The notes beneath the pieces were generated by a model. The model was not told the origin of the DNA. It worked only from the letters and a program-made list of their open reading frames with translations, and did no database searches. From a bacterium (GTDB lineage Bacteria > Patescibacteriota > Minisyncoccia > Moranbacterales > DUUL01), in assembly GCA_018675685.1 (NCBI GenBank), contig JABGXP010000020.1, forward strand, positions 1-37,679: DNA of 37,679 nucleotides. Reading direction: 5' to 3'. Below are positions 1 to 37,679 of this stretch, piece by piece; within the stretch, counting starts at the first letter, position 1; each line of letters starts with the position of its first letter. The position numbers were made by a program, and so were the translations under genes.

Positions 1-297
1 GCATAGAACCATCACCATTATAGTCTAAATACCATTCCATGTAAGCAGAGCCTTTTCTAGCAACACCTACATTATCAGCTCCATCACCATCCCAGTCTCC
101 TACGACGGGTGTGTCTGTGGCTAGACCAAAGCTATAAACTTTGTCTATTTGGGTACCATCCCATTGACCATTACCATTATAGTCTAAATACCATTCCATG
201 TAAGTAGAGCCTTTTCTAGCAACACCCACATTATCAATTCCATCACCATCCCAGTCTCCTACGACGGGTGTGTCTGTGTCAAAGCCAAAGCCTGGAA
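1..297. repeat. 159-bp (53-aa) near-identical coding tandem repeat, about 2 copies visible
   Basis: 'acgacgggtg' at 102 and 261 and 'tagtctaaat' at 21 and 180: constant 159-bp offset with nearly identical sequence. Confidence 0.9.
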
Positions 298-1090
298 CAA
301 AAATTAATTCGCTTAATTCAAACTCTGCCACAATAGTATGATTAGCACCAATATCAGAAACAGTATACTGATTATTTGCTACTTGATTAATCACCGAAAT
401 ACTATTGTCTATTAGAGAGCTTAAGTTTCGTCCACTATCCGCAATAACATCATAAGTCACATCGTTTCCATAACTAACTGCACTGATATTAGGCGATATT
501 GAACCACCCGTACCTGATACAGAAGCATTAAGTATGAATACATAAGGAGAAAATGTGATCTCTACTGTTGTTTCAAGTTGCACATTCGTTAATTGCAACG
601 GTGAAGAAGGATTGCTCACTTCTATGCCATTTACTTCAACCCTTGATACATAATAACCAGTGTCTGGAGTATAGGCAATTGAAATGTCATCACCAACATT
701 CACTGTTCCAAGGTCTTCTATGGTTCCATTTCCCACAACATTAACAGTTACGGGTGGTGTCACAAACGTGGACCAATGAACTTCGCTTGAATTTGGTCCA
801 TTACCGTCTGCGTTATAAGCATAAACGACAAAGTACCAATGTGTCGAAGGCGTTAAAACCAGCGGCAATGTATATGATATAACATTACCTACGTCGATTT
901 CGACAGTATATGGTCCTCCTTGCGTGGTACCATAATTTAGAACGTAGCCATCTATAGGGTCTCCACTGGTTGGTGCATCCCAACTAGCTGTTGGCGACAA
1001 AAGTGACGCCACTGCCTGCGATTCTGTAAAAAACAGGATAAGCAGGAACGAAAAAAATACTAACGATAAAAGTTTGACATGTTTATTCAT
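1..1090 (-). CDS. Secreted protein (3' end beyond window): signal peptide, FnIII-like domain, then DxDxDG (FG-GAP/VCBS-like) tandem repeats
   Basis: Own translation of minus strand from ATG at 1090: MNKHVKLLSLVFFSFLLILFFTESQAVASLLSPTASWDAPTSGDPIDGYVLNYGTT...; then repeats TDTPVVGDWDGDGIDNVGVARKGSTYMEWYLDYNGNGQWDG. SD-like GGGAGG upstream. Not in ORF track because it runs off the window edge. Confidence 0.85.
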   Translation of the reverse strand, partial: MNKHVKLLSLVFFSFLLILFFTESQAVASLLSPTASWDAPTSGDPIDGYVLNYGTTQGGPYTVEIDVGNVISYTLPLVLTPSTHWYFVVYAYNADGNGPNSSEVHWSTFVTPPVTVNVVGNGTIEDLGTVNVGDDISIAYTPDTGYYVSRVEVNGIEVSNPSSPLQLTNVQLETTVEITFSPYVFILNASVSGTGGSISPNISAVSYGNDVTYDVIADSGRNLSSLIDNSISVINQVANNQYTVSDIGANHTIVAEFELSELIFVPGFGFDTDTPVVGDWDGDGIDNVGVARKGSTYMEWYLDYNGNGQWDGTQIDKVYSFGLATDTPVVGDWDGDGADNVGVARKGSAYMEWYLDYNGDGSM

Positions 1091-1317: not shown

Positions 1318-2232
1318 TTATTTTGAAACAGTTGAATTATGGTTGATTTCTGGACTGTCACTATTTTTTTTGAAGTATATACGCGCTTCGTTCGAATTTC
1401 CACCCATAGCGTTAGAAGATGAGACTGCTCTTACGATAGCATAATAGACAACATCTTCCTTAAGATTATTAATTATCCCGGTTTTTTCCGACGTTTCAAC
1501 TTCCCAACAATCATAATTGTAAGATTCTCCTTTTTTTCTCAAATAGATTCTGTATCTTGCTTTCACAAGATCAATATATTGCCAGGTAACCGTGACTTTT
1601 TTATTGCCAATTCTTGTTGGACATTCCTTTTTTTGATTTTGATAAAGATGCAGATACGTTTCATGACTCTCATTGTTTATTCTTTTTGAGCTACTGAAAA
1701 CGAACGGAATCTTTTGAATATCATAATCAATTCCATCAAACTCACCGTCGTTATCAGAGTCTTGGTCTAAAATGTTCGCAATACCATCCTTATCATAATC
1801 AAGACTACACGCTTTTGGCCCCCAGGTTACATATTCAATTCCATCGGGAATACCATCCTTATCAGTATCTTGCTCATTAGGCGATGTTTTTAATTTTCTT
1901 TCTAAAACATCAGACAATCCATCGTCATCTGTATCAAGATTGTTGCTCCAAATGATCACTATCTCAGAAGAATAGCCGAATTTATTATCAGCAGTTGCTG
2001 ATATATAATTAGGCACATCAGGTTTCAAGTGGAGCTTACTTAGTTTGATTGAGAAGGCTCTTTTTTCTAGAGAAACTTTTCTATCATAGTTCCTGCTTGA
2101 TAAACCGACATGAATCGTATAACTAGGCGTTACTTTGCTGTCAGTAAACTCATCCCAACCTAGTCGTACCTCTTGTGCATTTGCTGTTTGAGTAAAAAAG
2201 AAAAGAATAATCAAAAATGTTTTTAATTTCAT
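1318..2232 (-). CDS. Secreted FnIII-like protein with thrombospondin-type-3-like Ca-binding repeats
   Basis: Signal peptide MKLKTFLIILFFFTQTANA; DTDDDGLSD, DTDKDGIPDG, DYDKDGIANILDQDSDNDGEFDG motifs. Confidence 0.8.
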   Translation of the reverse strand: MKLKTFLIILFFFTQTANAQEVRLGWDEFTDSKVTPSYTIHVGLSSRNYDRKVSLEKRAFSIKLSKLHLKPDVPNYISATADNKFGYSSEIVIIWSNNLDTDDDGLSDVLERKLKTSPNEQDTDKDGIPDGIEYVTWGPKACSLDYDKDGIANILDQDSDNDGEFDGIDYDIQKIPFVFSSSKRINNESHETYLHLYQNQKKECPTRIGNKKVTVTWQYIDLVKARYRIYLRKKGESYNYDCWEVETSEKTGIINNLKEDVVYYAIVRAVSSSNAMGGNSNEARIYFKKNSDSPEINHNSTVSK

Positions 2233-2328: not shown

Positions 2329-2357
2329 AGTATAACTTATTTTTTTGATTTTGTCAA
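2329..2357 (-). promoter_or_regulatory. Putative promoter TTGACA-N17-TATACT
   Basis: Minus-strand ttgaca aaatcaaaaaaataagt tatact upstream of the 1318..2232 CDS. Confidence 0.65.
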
Positions 2358-2377: not shown

Positions 2378-2418
2378 AAAAAAGGAGCTCATCGTGTGAA
2401 TACACAATAAACTCCTTT
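2378..2418 (-). terminator. Rho-independent terminator of the ExbB/ExbD/transglutaminase-like operon
   Basis: Minus strand: AAAGGAGTTTATTGTGTATTCACACGATGAGCTCCTTTTTT (AAAGGAG/CTCCTTT stem, inner GTGT/ACAC, T run). Confidence 0.6.
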
Positions 2419-2439: not shown

Positions 2440-4347
2440 CTAGTTATCGATTAATACCGGCGGCAGATACTTGAACTGATTGAATCCAACAACACTTACA
2501 CTGCGGGAATTTCCATGCCCTTGAATCATAGCGGCAAATGAAGGAAGATAACTCTTCCTTTGGGGACAATCTTGGTGCAGAGCGTTGTTGTCATAACCAT
2601 TTCCCGTAGGTTCGGTATAGGAGAAGGGTATCTCCACACCATTTACTGGGAGCAGAATGTGATTCGGAAATGGATCCGTTGTGAACTTACCAATTTGCGG
2701 TAAGAGTGGAACCAGATGTCCAATGCCATGATAACTGAGCTGAACCAGAGCACATACCTTTGGTGAATCCTTAAATGCTTTATGCTTTGATGCCATGTAA
2801 GCACTGGCGGCCCAAGTTGCATGGCCATCACAATCCTTGCCTCTATTCCACAATGCTACAATTGGTGGCATGGGAATTTCTTCCGGACCTGCGAACCCCT
2901 TCTTGCTCGTGTCTGTTTTGTGATCTGACACGTACGGCAGAATTTCTTCGATAAACTGCATGATTTGCTCTACAGCTTCATCTGGAGTCTCAGCATCGCC
3001 GACTACTGCATCAACTATTTCAGTGAGTCTTGGAGTGACTGCGACGTATGACGAGAAGTCTGAACTCCTTGGTTCTGCGTTGGATTTGCCTGTATTTGCA
3101 TAGACAACTCTTTTTTTATGGAGATTATTCTCCCTAACCTGTTGTAATTCATCCAAGAGATCCTGATAGGTCACGTCTACGTTCTTGTTTCCCAAGAGAA
3201 CTCGGTCATCATTTTCCATTGTGAATAGATAGGAAAAGGGAATCATAATTGATTGATCAGGTTCACGACTGCCCCAGAAACAGAGTTGTTTTTTTTCATT
3301 CACGATTGGGACAGGAACCGTCATCAGATGCCCAGTGTCATTATCCTGCCAATTACCAGGAGTCGAACTTTGATTATTAAGCCAGCGAACAATAACATAA
3401 TTGACTGGAGGCTTTTTTCTGTAAAGAAAAAGAGCTTGCTTACCTTTGCCAACAATTTCAATATCGTCAGGATTAAGGTATATTCCGTATGCTATTGAGT
3501 ATTGCCGGGACACCAACCACTGAGTTTTTTCAATATCCCACTCTCCAGTTTGCCAATTACATAGATCCGTGAAGGTGTAGAAGGCTATCGGCAAAGATTG
3601 ATAGGGTTCCAAAGATGAAACGCCAATTGCACGATCAACCGATCCTTTCCTCCACAGTCCTTGAGTATTGGGACGGAGACATAGCCAGGTGTCATTCGGT
3701 TTGATTCTCCTGGTTTTTCCATCAGCAAACATTCTCTTGAAACCTAATTCCAGACCGTTCATGCCTTTTGTTTCTAGAAAAGGTTCAAACAATACCCTGC
3801 TTGAATTAGTGATGTCGTTTGAAATACGACCAAATTCACTATACGGGACGACTTGAAATGCTGTGCTCAAGTCTTTGGTATTGATAGCCTCTTCAACAGA
3901 ATGGCCATTCTTGAGCATTCGAGCAGAGTAGACCCAATCTGTAGCTGGGAAATGAAGATAATCCTTGCCAATATTGTATCCAGAAAATCTTACGGGATCC
4001 AATTTAGTACCGAGCTTTTCACCTTTTCCAGTTGACACAATTGAAATCGTGTCACCCAAAGGGAAGGCCTTTTTGAGAAAGTCAGAAAACATTTTCTGTG
4101 CTGATATCAAGAAATCCAGGGGTTTTCCAGGAGGTATTGCAAATGCAACGCCAACAATTCCTTTGTAAGGATTGAAGCAACTCTTGGAGTCTGTCCAGAA
4201 TCCTGCTATAGCCACAGTGACTATCAAAATGGTTGTAGTGCAAATGATAACTCTCAGAAATTTCTTCCACGGATTGGACCGAGAAGAAGCCTTTAAGCCT
4301 TTAGAAAGTGTGGCTTTTTGCCAGTTTTTCTGATCTAGGTAGCTCAT
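2440..4347 (-). CDS. Membrane-anchored transglutaminase-like (papain-like fold) protein, 635 aa
   Basis: N-terminal TM (FLRVIICTTTILIVTVAIAGFW); putative catalytic Cys in NRGKDCDGHATWAASAYM, His in YHGIGHLVPLL, acidic residue in FSYTEPTGNG; upstream AIEEILPYVSD-like segment. SD AAAGGAG before ATG. Confidence 0.6.
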   Translation of the reverse strand: MSYLDQKNWQKATLSKGLKASSRSNPWKKFLRVIICTTTILIVTVAIAGFWTDSKSCFNPYKGIVGVAFAIPPGKPLDFLISAQKMFSDFLKKAFPLGDTISIVSTGKGEKLGTKLDPVRFSGYNIGKDYLHFPATDWVYSARMLKNGHSVEEAINTKDLSTAFQVVPYSEFGRISNDITNSSRVLFEPFLETKGMNGLELGFKRMFADGKTRRIKPNDTWLCLRPNTQGLWRKGSVDRAIGVSSLEPYQSLPIAFYTFTDLCNWQTGEWDIEKTQWLVSRQYSIAYGIYLNPDDIEIVGKGKQALFLYRKKPPVNYVIVRWLNNQSSTPGNWQDNDTGHLMTVPVPIVNEKKQLCFWGSREPDQSIMIPFSYLFTMENDDRVLLGNKNVDVTYQDLLDELQQVRENNLHKKRVVYANTGKSNAEPRSSDFSSYVAVTPRLTEIVDAVVGDAETPDEAVEQIMQFIEEILPYVSDHKTDTSKKGFAGPEEIPMPPIVALWNRGKDCDGHATWAASAYMASKHKAFKDSPKVCALVQLSYHGIGHLVPLLPQIGKFTTDPFPNHILLPVNGVEIPFSYTEPTGNGYDNNALHQDCPQRKSYLPSFAAMIQGHGNSRSVSVVGFNQFKYLPPVLIDN

Positions 4348-4365
4348 GTTATCTCCTTTGACTTA

Positions 4366-4770
4366 TTAATTTTCAGAGTAGTTAATAAGTTTTTTGGTAG
4401 TCCATTGAACCCTTCTTCTTTTTGAAGGGTCTTTACTTGTGGTTCCAAGGGAACGCACAAGATTCATGACATTGTCGATAAAACCGTAGGGAATTTTCTC
4501 CTCAATTATTGCAGCAACCTCCACCTTGTGAATTCCTTCTTGGAAAGCTGCTAATACAATTTTGGATAATTCATTTTCTTCCACATAACGCCCATTGCAC
4601 TTTATACCATATCCTTCCCCCGTTTCTTCCAAGAAAATATTAATCATAGGCAAGCGAAGATCGCTCTCCATTGATTCTTTAGGCTCCATTTGTATGGCGA
4701 GTAGGAATGCAATACAAATTAGCATAAAGAGATCTACAAATGACCAAATAGTTCCGTCATTTTCTTCCAT
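4366..4770 (-). CDS. ExbD/TolR-like membrane protein
   Basis: Start re-assigned to MEENDGTIWSFVDLFMLICIAFLLAIQ (SD AAGGAGGTG, 6-nt spacer); single N-terminal TM with an Asp, soluble C-terminal domain; overlaps the upstream ExbB-like CDS by 14 bp. Confidence 0.65.
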   Translation of the reverse strand: MEENDGTIWSFVDLFMLICIAFLLAIQMEPKESMESDLRLPMINIFLEETGEGYGIKCNGRYVEENELSKIVLAAFQEGIHKVEVAAIIEEKIPYGFIDNVMNLVRSLGTTSKDPSKRRRVQWTTKKLINYSEN

Positions 4771-5485
4771 TTTCGCCACCTCCTTTTTGTGCGATTCTGA
4801 AAATAACAAGAACCGTTTTTAATAGTGAATTTCTTTCTGAAATAACAAGTCGATTCAAGGTTGAAATGCATAATTTGCCAAGTAAGGCAAAGACTGTTGT
4901 TCCAATGGCGTTTCCAACTCCAACAAACATCGAAGCGTTGCTAGACTTGCTTAGCGTTGCGCTGGCAAGTCCCATTGCCGTTCCCAGGAGACCCAAGATT
5001 GGCAAGATAGTTTCAAAAAAAGTTAAGAGCTTTGGACCTTTAAATATCATTTCTTCAAGGTAGCCCTCCAGATTAGCTTTCACCTCGTCTGACCAATGTT
5101 GTTTTTCCGAAGTAGAGAATTTTCTAAAATGTTTCACAAAAAGTGAACCATTGAAAATGTCTTTAACCGGCAACTTTGTGGCACTAAGGTTGATCTCATC
5201 TTGATTTGCAACCATTTTTTCTACAACCCTTGCTTCTTTCACTGTAACAATAAATGTTGAAATTGACATAACAATGCCAATCACTGTAATCATTACAATA
5301 GGAATCATCAATGGGTTGCCGATTGTCATAAGAAAGAGATGCTCAATAATGTTCTCCATCGATAGTGTTAGCGACAGACACCCGAGTAGAGCGAATGCCG
5401 TTAAATACTGGATAGTGAACATGGTTGATCGTTTGAAACCTTTTCCATATCTAACCTTTTCGATTAATGTTTCTTGTTTTTCCAT
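4757..5485 (-). CDS. MotA/TolQ/ExbB-family proton-channel-like protein
   Basis: FFETILPILGLLGTAMGLASATLSKSSNASMFVGVGNAIGTTVFALLGKL resembles the MotA/TolQ/ExbB core; start re-assigned to MEKQETL with SD AAGGAG. Confidence 0.8.
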   Translation of the reverse strand: MEKQETLIEKVRYGKGFKRSTMFTIQYLTAFALLGCLSLTLSMENIIEHLFLMTIGNPLMIPIVMITVIGIVMSISTFIVTVKEARVVEKMVANQDEINLSATKLPVKDIFNGSLFVKHFRKFSTSEKQHWSDEVKANLEGYLEEMIFKGPKLLTFFETILPILGLLGTAMGLASATLSKSSNASMFVGVGNAIGTTVFALLGKLCISTLNRLVISERNSLLKTVLVIFRIAQKGGGENGRK

Positions 5486-5621
5486 CACATGACTCCTTCT
5501 TGGTTTTAAGTTAACGGTTTGGTTTGAATCATTAAAGTTTTCTATGCGTCGATACTTAGATTTTAAGGAACAAATTTCATAATACACAAAATTTTAGTAG
5601 CATCTATGCATTATAGGAATA

Positions 5622-5650
5622 ATAATACCTTTCTTTTTGTATTTTGTCAA
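5622..5650 (-). promoter_or_regulatory. Putative promoter TTGACA-N17-TATTAT for the ExbB/ExbD/transglutaminase-like operon
   Basis: Minus-strand ttgaca aaatacaaaaagaaagg tattat; a second TATAAT follows 6 nt later. Confidence 0.65.
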
Positions 5651-13838: not shown

Positions 13839-15866
13839 CTAGTTAACTTCATACAGAACAAGGATGGGAGCCGACTTCCCAAAAGACTCTTTTGTTCTTA
13901 TTTTTTCCAAAGCCTCTCTTTCAGTGGCATCGAAGGTAGACAGATAATCTTTCTCTGAAAGGGTGATACAAAAACCTTCAGATAAGGAGGATTTTAGTTT
14001 TTCTAAGTTCATTATAGTAGGTATTTTTTTATAGACGGTTTTATAGATACCATCACTGTCTAAGAAAAATCTCCGATCTTTTTCTAGCAGGTCGGAATTT
14101 AAATAAACAGAGTAATCAATATCTATGTTATAAAAGCTTAATACAAATGGGTTTTCTAGAAAAGCTATGTTTTTAGTTTCCTCACAGTGTATTTTGAGGG
14201 AATTTGATATTTTTGAGTATTCGGTATAAGTTATTTCTGTGGGAATGGCAGGTTCTTCTAAAAATGTGGCGGGGTAGTTTTTGTAAATATTAAACAAAGC
14301 AAGCACTAAAAAGATAAAAGTGTAAGTCTTTTTGTTATATATTAACAATAAATACGTTAGGGAGATTATTGAGATTAGGTAGAAAAGAGGGAGAAAGTAG
14401 ATTATAACCCTGGTCATTTGCAGGTCTAATGATAAATTATAGTGAATTGTGAACAGGGATATAGCAGTTAAAATAAGGATTAAAATTTCTTTTCTGATTT
14501 TGAAAAAAAGCAAAACAAATGAAGAACTGAATAAAATAAAAAAGAAGGGATTAAGATTTAGAAATAGATTGTTGTATTTAAAGTCATTGCCCGATGTATA
14601 TTTAAATGTTCCATAGAGTAAACTTTGAATTAAAGAGAATACATCTAAATAAATAAAGACAGGGGGAATGAATAAGACTATTAACAATAAGATTAATATT
14701 TTTTTCTTCAAAAATATCCTATAGAAATTTAATAAACAGCGCTTCCTTTTTTGCATCAGAAAGACATAGGCCGTTAAAGATATAGAGGGAAGTATGACAA
14801 AATTTTTCCCAGCGTCTTTACTGAAAAAATAAAGAACAGATATTACTAATATCATTATGCTGGTGATAAAAGTTGTGCTTTGGTTATCCCTTAGTCTTTT
14901 TAGTGATGATAAAAACAATACCAATATAAAGATAAAACAAAACTCATAAAAGACATATATTCTGATATAGAAATGGTTAAATATAAACCATGGTATGGTG
15001 GTATAAATAAGTAACATGAGCATGGTTGAAAATTTTGGTAAAAAGATCTTTTTGCAAATGTGATACACCAGAAGAGTGTTCAATGTTCCAAGTAGGATTG
15101 GAAATAGCTTAGCAACAAAAAGGTTTTTCCCAAAAAGAAACAATAGAGCACCAACTAAAACAGAAACATGAGATCCTCTTGTATAACTCTCCCCCTGGAG
15201 TTTCTTGTAGAATTCACCATTCTCAAAAAACTCGATGCCAGAGAAAATATGGTTGTATTCGTCTATGTAGCTGCCCTCATAGACTAAGGGCATCATAATC
15301 TTTATTGAGACAGAAAATATAATAATTGCATAGATAAGTATCTTTATTTTTCCTTGCTTGATCGAGTAAGTATTTTTAAGCTCTTGTTTTTTCTCGAAAA
15401 ACTCAATCAGTTTTCGGTTCTTTATCATAACAGTCATGCACGCTATTATGGTTGTTGAAAACAAGACATTCTTTAAGAAGATGTTTTGAATGTCTGAAAA
15501 GATAGACACGAAAATTAAAAGGAAAATAAATGAGTTTTTCAAAAATACAATTCTAGAGGGATCTTTCCCCTCCATTTTTGCGAGTCCCAATTCTATATCA
15601 GAAATAATGTTTTTGGGTCCAACAGCTACTAGATAATGGATAAGTGGGATTGCTAATAAAAAATAGGGCTTAATTAAAAGAATGTGCCCTCGCAAATCTA
15701 TCCATGTAAAAACTAGAAATAAACCCGATGAAATCCAAAAAGTATCTCTAAACAATATCTCCCCCCTGGTCCCTGGTTTCTTTATTATTTTTTCAATAAA
15801 AATACCCCAGGTTTTTGTACCGAGTCTTTTAAATTCTTGAGTTTTTTTCTTTAGATCAAATTTCAT
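13839..15866 (-). CDS. Multi-TM GT-C / family-39-like glycosyltransferase membrane protein
   Basis: YEGSYIDEYNHIFSGIEFFENGEFYKKLQGESYTRGSHVSVLVGALLFLFGKNLFVAKLFPILLGTLNTLLVYHICKKIF; at least 10 hydrophobic segments. Confidence 0.7.
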   Translation of the reverse strand: MKFDLKKKTQEFKRLGTKTWGIFIEKIIKKPGTRGEILFRDTFWISSGLFLVFTWIDLRGHILLIKPYFLLAIPLIHYLVAVGPKNIISDIELGLAKMEGKDPSRIVFLKNSFIFLLIFVSIFSDIQNIFLKNVLFSTTIIACMTVMIKNRKLIEFFEKKQELKNTYSIKQGKIKILIYAIIIFSVSIKIMMPLVYEGSYIDEYNHIFSGIEFFENGEFYKKLQGESYTRGSHVSVLVGALLFLFGKNLFVAKLFPILLGTLNTLLVYHICKKIFLPKFSTMLMLLIYTTIPWFIFNHFYIRIYVFYEFCFIFILVLFLSSLKRLRDNQSTTFITSIMILVISVLYFFSKDAGKNFVILPSISLTAYVFLMQKRKRCLLNFYRIFLKKKILILLLIVLFIPPVFIYLDVFSLIQSLLYGTFKYTSGNDFKYNNLFLNLNPFFFILFSSSFVLLFFKIRKEILILILTAISLFTIHYNLSLDLQMTRVIIYFLPLFYLISIISLTYLLLIYNKKTYTFIFLVLALFNIYKNYPATFLEEPAIPTEITYTEYSKISNSLKIHCEETKNIAFLENPFVLSFYNIDIDYSVYLNSDLLEKDRRFFLDSDGIYKTVYKKIPTIMNLEKLKSSLSEGFCITLSEKDYLSTFDATEREALEKIRTKESFGKSAPILVLYEVN

Positions 15867-15875
15867 TTTTTAATT

Positions 15876-16826
15876 TTACCAAAAAAGTTCCTTAAGTCTT
15901 TTGAAATAATTACCAAAGGTCTTTTCAGTTTCAAAATCAATCTCTGTTGCGGTGATATTTCCTTGTTGGATTCCAGCTATTTCAAAATAATAGACGTTGC
16001 TTTCTGAATTTAATATTTCTTTTAATGAAGTTTTGCAAAGTAAATTTTTGATCTCGGGATTTTTTTCGCATTGCATTTTTCGCATATTAGCTTCTTTTGG
16101 TGAGGTGCCCGAAACAAAAGAAAAGTCTGGATTGATTTTTGAGAGTAATTTCTTGGAAAAAATTGGATGGAGTGTATTGGCGCCTGTGATATAGAATCTT
16201 CCATCTGACTTGATGATTAAATCTTTTGGAAACTGCGAATCTTTTTTTAAATTTTCAGAAGTAAGTGGTTTACCAGCTTCTAATTTTGTAGAATCACTCT
16301 TTGTTAATTTTTTTGTTTTAAACTTGTTAGTCTTGAAAATATTCTTAATGTCGTCGTCTGTGATTTTTCGCAACACTCCTTGTTCAATATAGAAAGTGGA
16401 AAAGAATGATGAGACAAGACTTCCATTTGGGCGGGAAGTTTCATTCTTTCTAAAAAGTCTTTCTTTTAATTCTTCTTTTTCTGCAATAATATTCCCTTTT
16501 TCTCGTAAAAGGGGAGAGAGCGTCTTGATTACTCTCACGTCTATATCGTCTTGGTCTATTTTTTCAAATTCTTTATCTGTCAACTTCAAGGACAGATTGA
16601 TGTTAGTATGATCTTTTCCACTGAAGTGTTGGATTGTTATAATAGCTCCTTTTTGTTCCAGCGATAAATTTTTAAAAGTTTTTGCTTCAATTTGCAAAAC
16701 GTGAAACGTGATAAATCCGAGTATAACAAAAAGGCCTATAGTGTAGAAAGAAGTCCGAAGAAGTTTAAATTGTTTTTTTGTTAGTCTATCTAAGGAAAAT
16801 TTCTCGGATAGTTTTTTTTGTGGCAT
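15876..16826 (-). CDS. Single-TM-anchored protein of unknown function
   Basis: LRTSFYTIGLFVILGFITFHVLQI TM then soluble domain; 9 bp upstream of the GT-C gene. Confidence 0.65.
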   Translation of the reverse strand: MPQKKLSEKFSLDRLTKKQFKLLRTSFYTIGLFVILGFITFHVLQIEAKTFKNLSLEQKGAIITIQHFSGKDHTNINLSLKLTDKEFEKIDQDDIDVRVIKTLSPLLREKGNIIAEKEELKERLFRKNETSRPNGSLVSSFFSTFYIEQGVLRKITDDDIKNIFKTNKFKTKKLTKSDSTKLEAGKPLTSENLKKDSQFPKDLIIKSDGRFYITGANTLHPIFSKKLLSKINPDFSFVSGTSPKEANMRKMQCEKNPEIKNLLCKTSLKEILNSESNVYYFEIAGIQQGNITATEIDFETEKTFGNYFKRLKELFW

Positions 16827-36181: not shown

Positions 36182-36877
36182 ATGTATTACGATAGATTTA
36201 TTGAGTTTGCGATTATACAAGGTGGAGTGCCAGATGGAACAGTTGTTCTTATGTTGATGTTGCCAATTGTCGTTACTATAATTGCTTTTTTTCGGCAAGT
36301 TATTGGAATTAAAGCCTTCGGTATCTACACCCCGGCACTTATAACATTTGCATTTGCTGCAATCGGTTCAGAGGCCGAAAGTGTTTGGAAGGGTGCTCTT
36401 TATGGAGTCACCATCTTTGTTACAGTGATTTTCATCGGAACTATAATGAGGTATGTCCTGAAAAGGTTTAGACTTTTATATCTCCCAAGAGTTGCTCTGC
36501 TTATTACAATCGTTTCTTTATCAACTTTAGCACTACTTGTAGTTGGTGGAATGTTCCAACGAACTGGGTGGGCAAGTGTTTCAATTTTCCCGATTTTGAT
36601 TATGATTGCACTTGTTGAAAAGTTTGTGGCAACTCAGATTGAAAAGGGTGCTAGGACGGCTATCATTCTTTCTTTTGAAACGCTTTTGATTTCTCTGGTT
36701 TGTTACGCTGTTTTAAGTTGGGATTCATTGATTCGTTTTGTCTCAATACATTCATGGGTTGTATTGTTCACTATTGTGATTAATATTTTCCTTGGTAAAT
36801 GGACAGGACTTCGTTTAACAGAAATGCTTCGATTTAAAGATGTTATCAAAAATGCTGAACACACTGACAAAAACTAA
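36182..36877 (+). CDS. UUP1-like 7TM membrane protein (7TM_transglut family)
   Basis: MLPIVVTIIAFFRQVIGIKAFGIYTPALITFAFAAIG...LYLPRVALLITIVSLSTLALLVVGG...IFLGKWTGLRLTEMLRF. Confidence 0.8.
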   Translation: MYYDRFIEFAIIQGGVPDGTVVLMLMLPIVVTIIAFFRQVIGIKAFGIYTPALITFAFAAIGSEAESVWKGALYGVTIFVTVIFIGTIMRYVLKRFRLLYLPRVALLITIVSLSTLALLVVGGMFQRTGWASVSIFPILIMIALVEKFVATQIEKGARTAIILSFETLLISLVCYAVLSWDSLIRFVSIHSWVVLFTIVINIFLGKWTGLRLTEMLRFKDVIKNAEHTDKN

Positions 36878-37679
36878 AGGAATCCTGGGAATGAACGCCC
36901 GGAATTTGAAATATATTCGCCCATATAACTTAAAAGGAGCAAAGCGTTTAGCTGATGATAAGCTGCGCTGCAAACGTGTTTTAAGAAAAGGTGGAATTCC
37001 TGTTCCTGAGCTTATCACTAAGATTAAGACTAAAGAAGAACTTGATAATTTTGATTTCTCCTCTTTGCCGAATAGCTTTGTTCTGAAGCCAAATTTTGGC
37101 TTTGGAGGTGAGGGGATTCTGGTTGTTTATGGAAGAAAGAAAGGAAGGAGTAATGTTTGGGTCAAAGCTAACAGAGATCCTATCACAGAAGATGATCTAA
37201 GAAATCATGTTAGGAATATTTTAGACGGTTCGTTTTCGAGGGCCAATACCCCTGACATTGCCTTTTTTGAAGAAAGGATCCAACTATTGAAACTTTTCAA
37301 GCCTTATGCTTATAAAGGAATCCCCGATATTCGCGTGATTGTTTTTAATCGTGTTCCTGTAATGGCAATGCTCCGACTTCCTACTGAAGCTTCTGGTGGA
37401 ACTTCGAATGTGCATCAAGGTGGAATTGCGGTAGGTATTGATATGGCTACTGGAGTAACAACAACAGCAATTCAATACAACCATTCAGTCGAATATGCCC
37501 CAGGAAAAAGACTGCTTTTGAGCGGTATTAGAATTCCAAATTGGAAGGAGATATTAAAATTAGCGATTAAGTCGCAAGACGTTTCTAATTTAGGGTATTT
37601 AGGGGCTGACATTGCTATTGATCGAAATAAAGGACCTGTTTTTATGGAGATCAATGCTCGCCCGGGACTCGCTATCCAA
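36852..37679 (+). CDS. ATP-grasp ligase (alpha-L-glutamate ligase-/sugar-transfer-associated-type), truncated by window end
   Basis: MLNTLTKTKGILGMNARNLKYIRPYNLKGAKRLADDKLRCKRVLRKGGIPVPELI...FVLKPNFGFGGEGILVV...GYLGADIAIDRNKGPVFMEINARPGLAIQ; open to the last base. Confidence 0.88.
   Translation, partial: MLNTLTKTKGILGMNARNLKYIRPYNLKGAKRLADDKLRCKRVLRKGGIPVPELITKIKTKEELDNFDFSSLPNSFVLKPNFGFGGEGILVVYGRKKGRSNVWVKANRDPITEDDLRNHVRNILDGSFSRANTPDIAFFEERIQLLKLFKPYAYKGIPDIRVIVFNRVPVMAMLRLPTEASGGTSNVHQGGIAVGIDMATGVTTTAIQYNHSVEYAPGKRLLLSGIRIPNWKEILKLAIKSQDVSNLGYLGADIAIDRNKGPVFMEINARPGLAIQ

Follow-up and report, generated by a model that had tools for sequence, protein, structure and literature searches.

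What does an ion-driven motor do in a bacterium that is thought to have no outer membrane, when the only apparent partner of the motor is an exported enzyme? Stators of the ExbBD, TolQR and MotAB type use proton flow to drive an envelope effector (TonB, TolA, the flagellum, or ZorAB in Zorya defence), and the accepted task of TonB- and Tol-type motors is to carry energy to an outer membrane. The question is raised by a locus in the window, the 37,679-nucleotide stretch of DNA analysed here, which forms the start of a 123,637-base contig in a 1.05 Mb genome of 22 contigs. The relatives that carry a name belong to Candidatus Moraniibacteriota / Moranbacteria, within the Patescibacteria (CPR), a group presumed to have no outer membrane (PMC12102498). 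Contamination as the origin of the locus was rejected, since the contig carries prfB-, ftsEX- and murJ-like genes (read by eye); the relatives in other Moranbacteria assemblies also count against it.

Three genes on the minus strand make up the operon. They encode a MotA/TolQ/ExbB-family channel subunit of 242 aa with four predicted transmembrane (TM) segments (4757..5485), an ExbD/TolR-family subunit of 134 aa with a single TM segment (4366..4770), and a 635-aa single-TM protein with an exported transglutaminase-like domain at about residues 425-635 (2440..4347). These reading frames, the 14-bp overlap of the ExbB and ExbD genes, the 18-bp gap between ExbD and the enzyme, and the Shine-Dalgarno-like AGGAG sequences before the genes were all read directly, as an earlier note on this DNA had described them. 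The intrinsic terminator with which that note closed the transcript (2378..2418, minus strand) consists of a 17-pair hairpin and a T-run, and was far more stable than shuffled sequences (-27.8 kcal/mol, z -7.6, matched by 0 of 200 shuffles). At the other end, the sigma-70-type promoter TTGACA-17-TATTAT (5622..5650, minus strand) does match the consensus at 11 of 12 positions, but promoter-like sites in general show no excess over shuffles (14 observed, 14.1 expected from shuffling); a real operon promoter at 5650..5622 is plausible.

The channel subunit matched PF01618 (MotA/ExbB) with an E-value of 8e-5 and 22.8 bits, against a cut-off of 22.9 that three of its relatives exceed, and a profile of the six-member family matched MotA (E 0.001) and TolQ (E 0.012). 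T169, T196 and T197 are invariant in the six sequences and align with the pore threonines of MotA/TolQ, while the motifs GLLGT in TM3 and AxGTT in TM4 are conserved. Hydropathy analysis gave four TM segments, a MotA-like layout, versus three in ExbB/TolQ, which qualifies the earlier ExbB/MotA-like label toward MotA-like. The ExbD-like protein matched PF02472 with an E-value of 3.7e-4, 4 bits below the cut-off, and its family profile gave a 105-residue alignment with E. coli-type ExbD (E 0.003). Its invariant Asp13 lies in the TM segment and aligns with the ion-binding Asp of ExbD PFIDVML, and the periplasmic-type domain carries an invariant CNG. Judged from these alignments, the motor subunits retain the ion-path residues, and together with the Pfam and profile matches this upholds the assignment of the pair to ExbB and ExbD. 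ExbB/ExbD pairs of the ordinary kind also turned up in assemblies of other Patescibacteria (L028 and L029), one of these operons having two ExbD genes. They are unexpected in bacteria thought to have no outer membrane, and the 635-aa enzyme was absent from the stretch examined at both loci.

Each of the six members of the 635-aa family has a net-positive cytoplasmic tail and a single N-terminal TM helix, with the large remainder exported. YLxxxxW is invariant at the cytoplasmic tip, and residues 10-74 (65 residues, TM included) contain no invariant position. No Pfam family was recognised in the window protein, with no direct match to PF06035. Comparison of the C-terminal domain with ordinary Moranbacteria Transglut_core proteins by hhalign gave a probability of 94% and an E-value of 1.2e-7 with the Cys aligned, and a second Moranbacteria transglutaminase group gave no match. 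Cys506, His509, His544, Asp558 and Glu579 are invariant in the six enzymes; Asp505 precedes Cys506 and Glu/Asp507 follows it, giving D-C-[E/D] in 6/6. Invariance of the Cys, the His and an acidic residue among sequences only 31-52% identical argues for catalysis, and the transglutaminase-like domain with a conserved Cys-His-acidic set that had been proposed earlier is now placed at C506/H544/E579. Glu579 is preferred over Asp558 as the predicted third catalytic residue because it sits after the strand that follows the His, like the E-T-T of other Moranbacteria transglutaminase-like proteins (by eye); MAFFT did not separate the two. The D-C-[E/D] motif favours a putative calcium-dependent protease of the LapG type over a crosslinker.

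An AlphaFold2 model of the cropped enzyme domain reached a pLDDT of 70 and a pTM of 0.74; the full-length model was too poor (pLDDT 51) and was set aside. In the models, helix 507-519 begins directly after C506, strand 542-550 contains H544, and E579 comes just after strand 571-577. This Cys/His/Glu placement fits a transglutaminase-like fold, but Foldseek returned nothing significant against solved structures, the cropped-domain model included. Its top matches, vasohibins and CPR-C4, were non-significant (E 0.08-0.2, TM-score <=0.3), and LapG (4u65) gave an E-value of only 0.33. Elsewhere in the window, 30 kb from the operon, lies a second, unrelated transglutaminase-associated locus (36182..37679, plus strand). 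It consists of a gene for a protein of the 7TM_transglut family (PF14402, E 2.5e-28) that lacks the usual inactive transglutaminase part, and then of one for a sugar-transfer-type ATP-grasp protein (PF14397, E 9e-65). Adjacent genes at 13839..16826 (minus strand) encode a 675-aa polytopic membrane protein and a 316-aa single-TM protein, both without a Pfam match at E 0.001.

A family search detected the enzyme in 6 of the 131 genomes of the order; two further genomes in that search gave weak transglutaminase-domain matches only, and the further genomes of the class that were searched held no full-length member. Five loci, corresponding to five of the same six carriers, were all that a pattern-limited scan of 85,462 species returned. 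Outside the family, a profile run over about 500 genomes gave four weak matches, three of them to transglutaminase-like proteins aligned over the same region. The carriers are a few tiny Moranbacteria, probably host-dependent in lifestyle. PF01618 matches occurred in 6 of 124 genomes of the order, exactly the six that carry the enzyme; the probability of this by chance is 2e-10 if genomes are taken as independent, which they in fact are not. The order ExbB-ExbD-enzyme is identical in all six loci, with genes mostly overlapping or closely spaced, and the gene-neighbourhood search suggested in the earlier note thus found strict co-occurrence of the three families. Besides the window genome, five other Moranbacteria genomes carry all three genes, with pairwise identities of 24-57%; retention of the genes in the same order at such divergence in five independent genomes indicates that the reading frames are real. 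Across the six genomes, distances between enzymes co-vary with those between ExbD proteins (r 0.85, Mantel p 0.0014) and between ExbB proteins (r 0.57, Mantel p 0.014).

The carriers are scattered in the order, and the wider flanks of the loci vary apart from one gene, which encodes a TSP3/fn3 protein. Since the three-gene order is kept in 6/6 loci amid this scattered distribution and these changing flanks, a shared function is hard to avoid. Surface-polysaccharide genes lie close by in four loci (the window, L008, L009 and L011). Single-sequence scans found no relatives in genome contigs or viral contigs, an alignment scan none in viral contigs, and tblastn-level searches none in plasmids and phages; a mobile-element origin is therefore unsupported.

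The TSP3/fn3 gene (1318..2232, minus strand) encodes a secreted protein of 304 aa and sits past the operon terminator. It has its own predicted sigma-70-type promoter, TTGACA-17-TATACT (2329..2357, minus strand), which matches 11 of 12 consensus positions and closely resembles the operon promoter in sequence. Full-length relatives were found in five carriers only (E 1e-105 to 1e-116), and other genomes gave short partial matches, mainly to the TSP3 repeat. The gene adjoins the operon in 5/5 loci with the flank present, on either side and on either strand; in the sixth carrier the contig ends before this position could show. The gene belongs to the conserved module. Its product is a candidate substrate or partner of the enzyme, and, lying outside the operon transcript, could also be a merely co-inherited surface protein. 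TSP3 is a calcium-binding repeat type, and the TSP3 segment weakly matched, by repeat type only, the TSP3 stretches of the gliding and cohesion proteins CglD and MtsD. The next gene (2..1090, minus strand), cut by the contig end, encodes a secreted fn3 / InlB-B-repeat / FG-GAP-like protein (PF18998, E 1.2e-9; PF00041, E 1e-6), a neighbour of the module. Near the operon in two other loci (L008 2012..3540 and L011 15027..16510), a common cassette was observed; it encodes two secreted proteins, one fn3-like and one small, and a DUF2304 membrane protein.

TonB and TolA dock on their motors via a His/SHLS motif in the TM helix. This motif is absent from the predicted TM helix of all six 635-aa proteins, which counts against motor docking. 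The earlier note had seen no TonB or OmpA-like partner; a search of the six carrier genomes for the TonB_C domain was indeed empty, and the operon itself lacks an OmpA-like gene, but one OmpA-domain lipoprotein is encoded on another contig of this genome. Such proteins, which here have a glycine-zipper region, were located at L087 1153..1812 (this genome, by a secA-like gene) and L086 1144..1818 (carrier G007), with none in four of the six carriers; they are usual in diderm bacteria. Separately, well-conserved AAA proteins of the sigma-54 enhancer-binding type were observed in 10 of 124 genomes of the order and in four of the six carriers, often by secreted fn3 genes. Such genes lie at L009 2..643, L010 3205..4386 and L011 13484..14749, beside the carrier loci, and further ones at L051-L060. 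Control of the operon by sigma-54 was rejected, as sigma-54 was not found in any of the 124 genomes and the enhancer-type genes also lie near fn3 genes of non-carriers.

The component assignments are well supported. A motor pair whose ion path is intact is tightly linked to an anchored, exported enzyme, and this is read most economically as a motor-effector system. We tentatively favour, at somewhat less than even confidence, an ion-driven motor that energises a membrane-anchored LapG-like cysteine protease acting on the secreted TSP3/fn3 protein, a preference that follows from the D-C-[E/D] motif and the secreted TSP3-repeat partner. Under this proposal, an ExbB5-ExbD2-type motor would sit in the single membrane of the Moranbacterium, and the TM helix and YLxxxxW tail of the enzyme would dock on the ExbB pentamer via residues other than those used by TonB/TolA. 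Through the cell wall or S-layer, the enzyme would then be moved, extended or switched by proton (or sodium) flow. It would cleave or otherwise process the TSP3/fn3 protein, probably in a calcium-dependent manner, so as to release, mature or anchor it, with control of surface adhesion or host attachment as the likely role. Here we infer the docking, the energy coupling, the calcium dependence and the substrate. Motor-driven transducers with unrelated C-terminal domains have a precedent in those with a vWA domain (PMC12204202). A stator in a host without an outer membrane nevertheless needs a purpose, and this counts against the motor reading.

The motor could instead drive a cell-wall enzyme that cuts or links peptidoglycan stem peptides (or an S-layer or wall polymer) within a Tol-like remodelling or division machine, the TSP3/fn3 protein being a passenger. 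Wall peptidases do occur among transglutaminase-like folds, and the surface-polysaccharide genes beside the loci in the window, L008, L009 and L011 would suit such a role. Relatives of ExbD/TolR and MotB commonly bind peptidoglycan, and Tol works at the division site (PMC12583513). Seen in no more than 6 of the order's 131 genomes, the system is nonetheless hard to reconcile with a core division function, the TSP3/fn3 gene is linked to the module as tightly as the other genes, and the D-C-[E/D] motif resembles LapG; a wall enzyme is thus unlikely. It is less likely again that the 635-aa protein serves as a force transducer or adhesin and uses its fold for binding, not catalysis, with the motor pulling on the TSP3/fn3 protein for gliding or attachment. 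The weak resemblance of the TSP3 segment to CglD and MtsD, by repeat type only, points this way, and vWA-type transducers of unknown function have been proposed from sequence and models (PMC12204202), but the Cys, His and acidic residue, invariant across such divergent sequences, argue for catalysis.

It is also improbable, a little more so than the transducer, that these surface genes are inherited together without any connection, the enzyme acting alone and ExbB/ExbD being a relic or a general ion channel. The missing TonB/TolA docking motif is what this would explain; conservation of the three-gene order in every locus at 24-57% identity, despite scattered carriers and changing flanks, speaks against it. 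A Zorya-like anti-phage defence system with a new effector would account for an accessory gene beside a MotA/ExbB-type pair and for the patchy distribution, but is highly improbable: PADLOC gave no relevant match, nuclease and helicase genes are missing from the loci, the enzyme is exported rather than cytoplasmic, the 242-aa channel subunit lacks a ZorA-like long tail, and the operons are surrounded by genes for surface polysaccharide and secreted proteins instead of defence genes. The motor-driven LapG-like protease remains our preferred reading.

No published description of this composition, an ExbB/ExbD pair with a transglutaminase-like protein in Patescibacteria/Moranbacteria, was found in the open-licence literature, in agreement with the earlier note, which knew of no such system. 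The motor belongs to an established type; what is new is the effector and the kind of host. With still less confidence than in the mechanism itself, we suggest that this may be the first proton- or sodium-powered surface protease, combining an ExbBD-type motor, a LapG-like enzyme and a dedicated TSP3/fn3 target in a cell without an outer membrane. Should the coupling prove real, the range of this family of ion motors would grow to include the powering or switching of a cell-surface enzyme, and there would be a way into how these epibiotic bacteria handle their surface proteins while attaching to a host. With four genes, the module is of a size that can be expressed and tested.

Among known systems, Zorya (ZorAB with effectors) likewise joins a MotA/MotB-like pair to an added effector. 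Zorya effectors are cytoplasmic and directed at nucleic acids, whereas the module here, without a PADLOC match, has no cytoplasmic effector genes of the Zorya kind nearby. CPR-C4 and the vasohibins are transglutaminase-like cysteine proteases, and CPR-C4 comes from the same superphylum; neither matches the enzyme in sequence, and CPR-C4 differs in its Cys-His-Leu(carbonyl) triad and in being a soluble homodimer (PMC9108980).

The ExbBD-TonB and TolQR-TolA systems share with the module the genes for a 5:2 motor and, after them, one for an exported protein that has a single TM segment and a short tail in the cytoplasm, as well as the conserved ExbD Asp and ExbB/TolQ pore threonines. The module differs in having neither TonB_C nor SHLS in the TM helix, in an effector with an enzyme fold, in a channel subunit with four TM segments, and in a host expected to lack an outer membrane (PMC12102498). 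Similar in arrangement are the vWA-type transducers (PMC12204202), in which the motor pair adjoins a TM-anchored exported protein with a C-terminal domain unrelated to TonB/TolA; theirs is a vWA fold in diderm hosts, here a transglutaminase-like fold in Patescibacteria. On the enzyme side, the comparison is with LapG and DvhG (BTLCP, PF06035), which differ in having Asp where Glu is the probable third residue here, in matching PF06035, and in working with a LapD/DvhD c-di-GMP receptor; no such receptor was seen in the loci, where the enzyme is paired with a motor. The likenesses are a transglutaminase-like domain with D-C-[E/D] at the active site and, for DvhG, an N-terminal TM helix with a long linker; DvhG is a TM-anchored adhesin protease in which D-C-E is the calcium and active-site motif (PMC13090378). 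The substrate of LapG and DvhG is a surface adhesin, and the candidate here is the secreted TSP3/fn3 surface protein.
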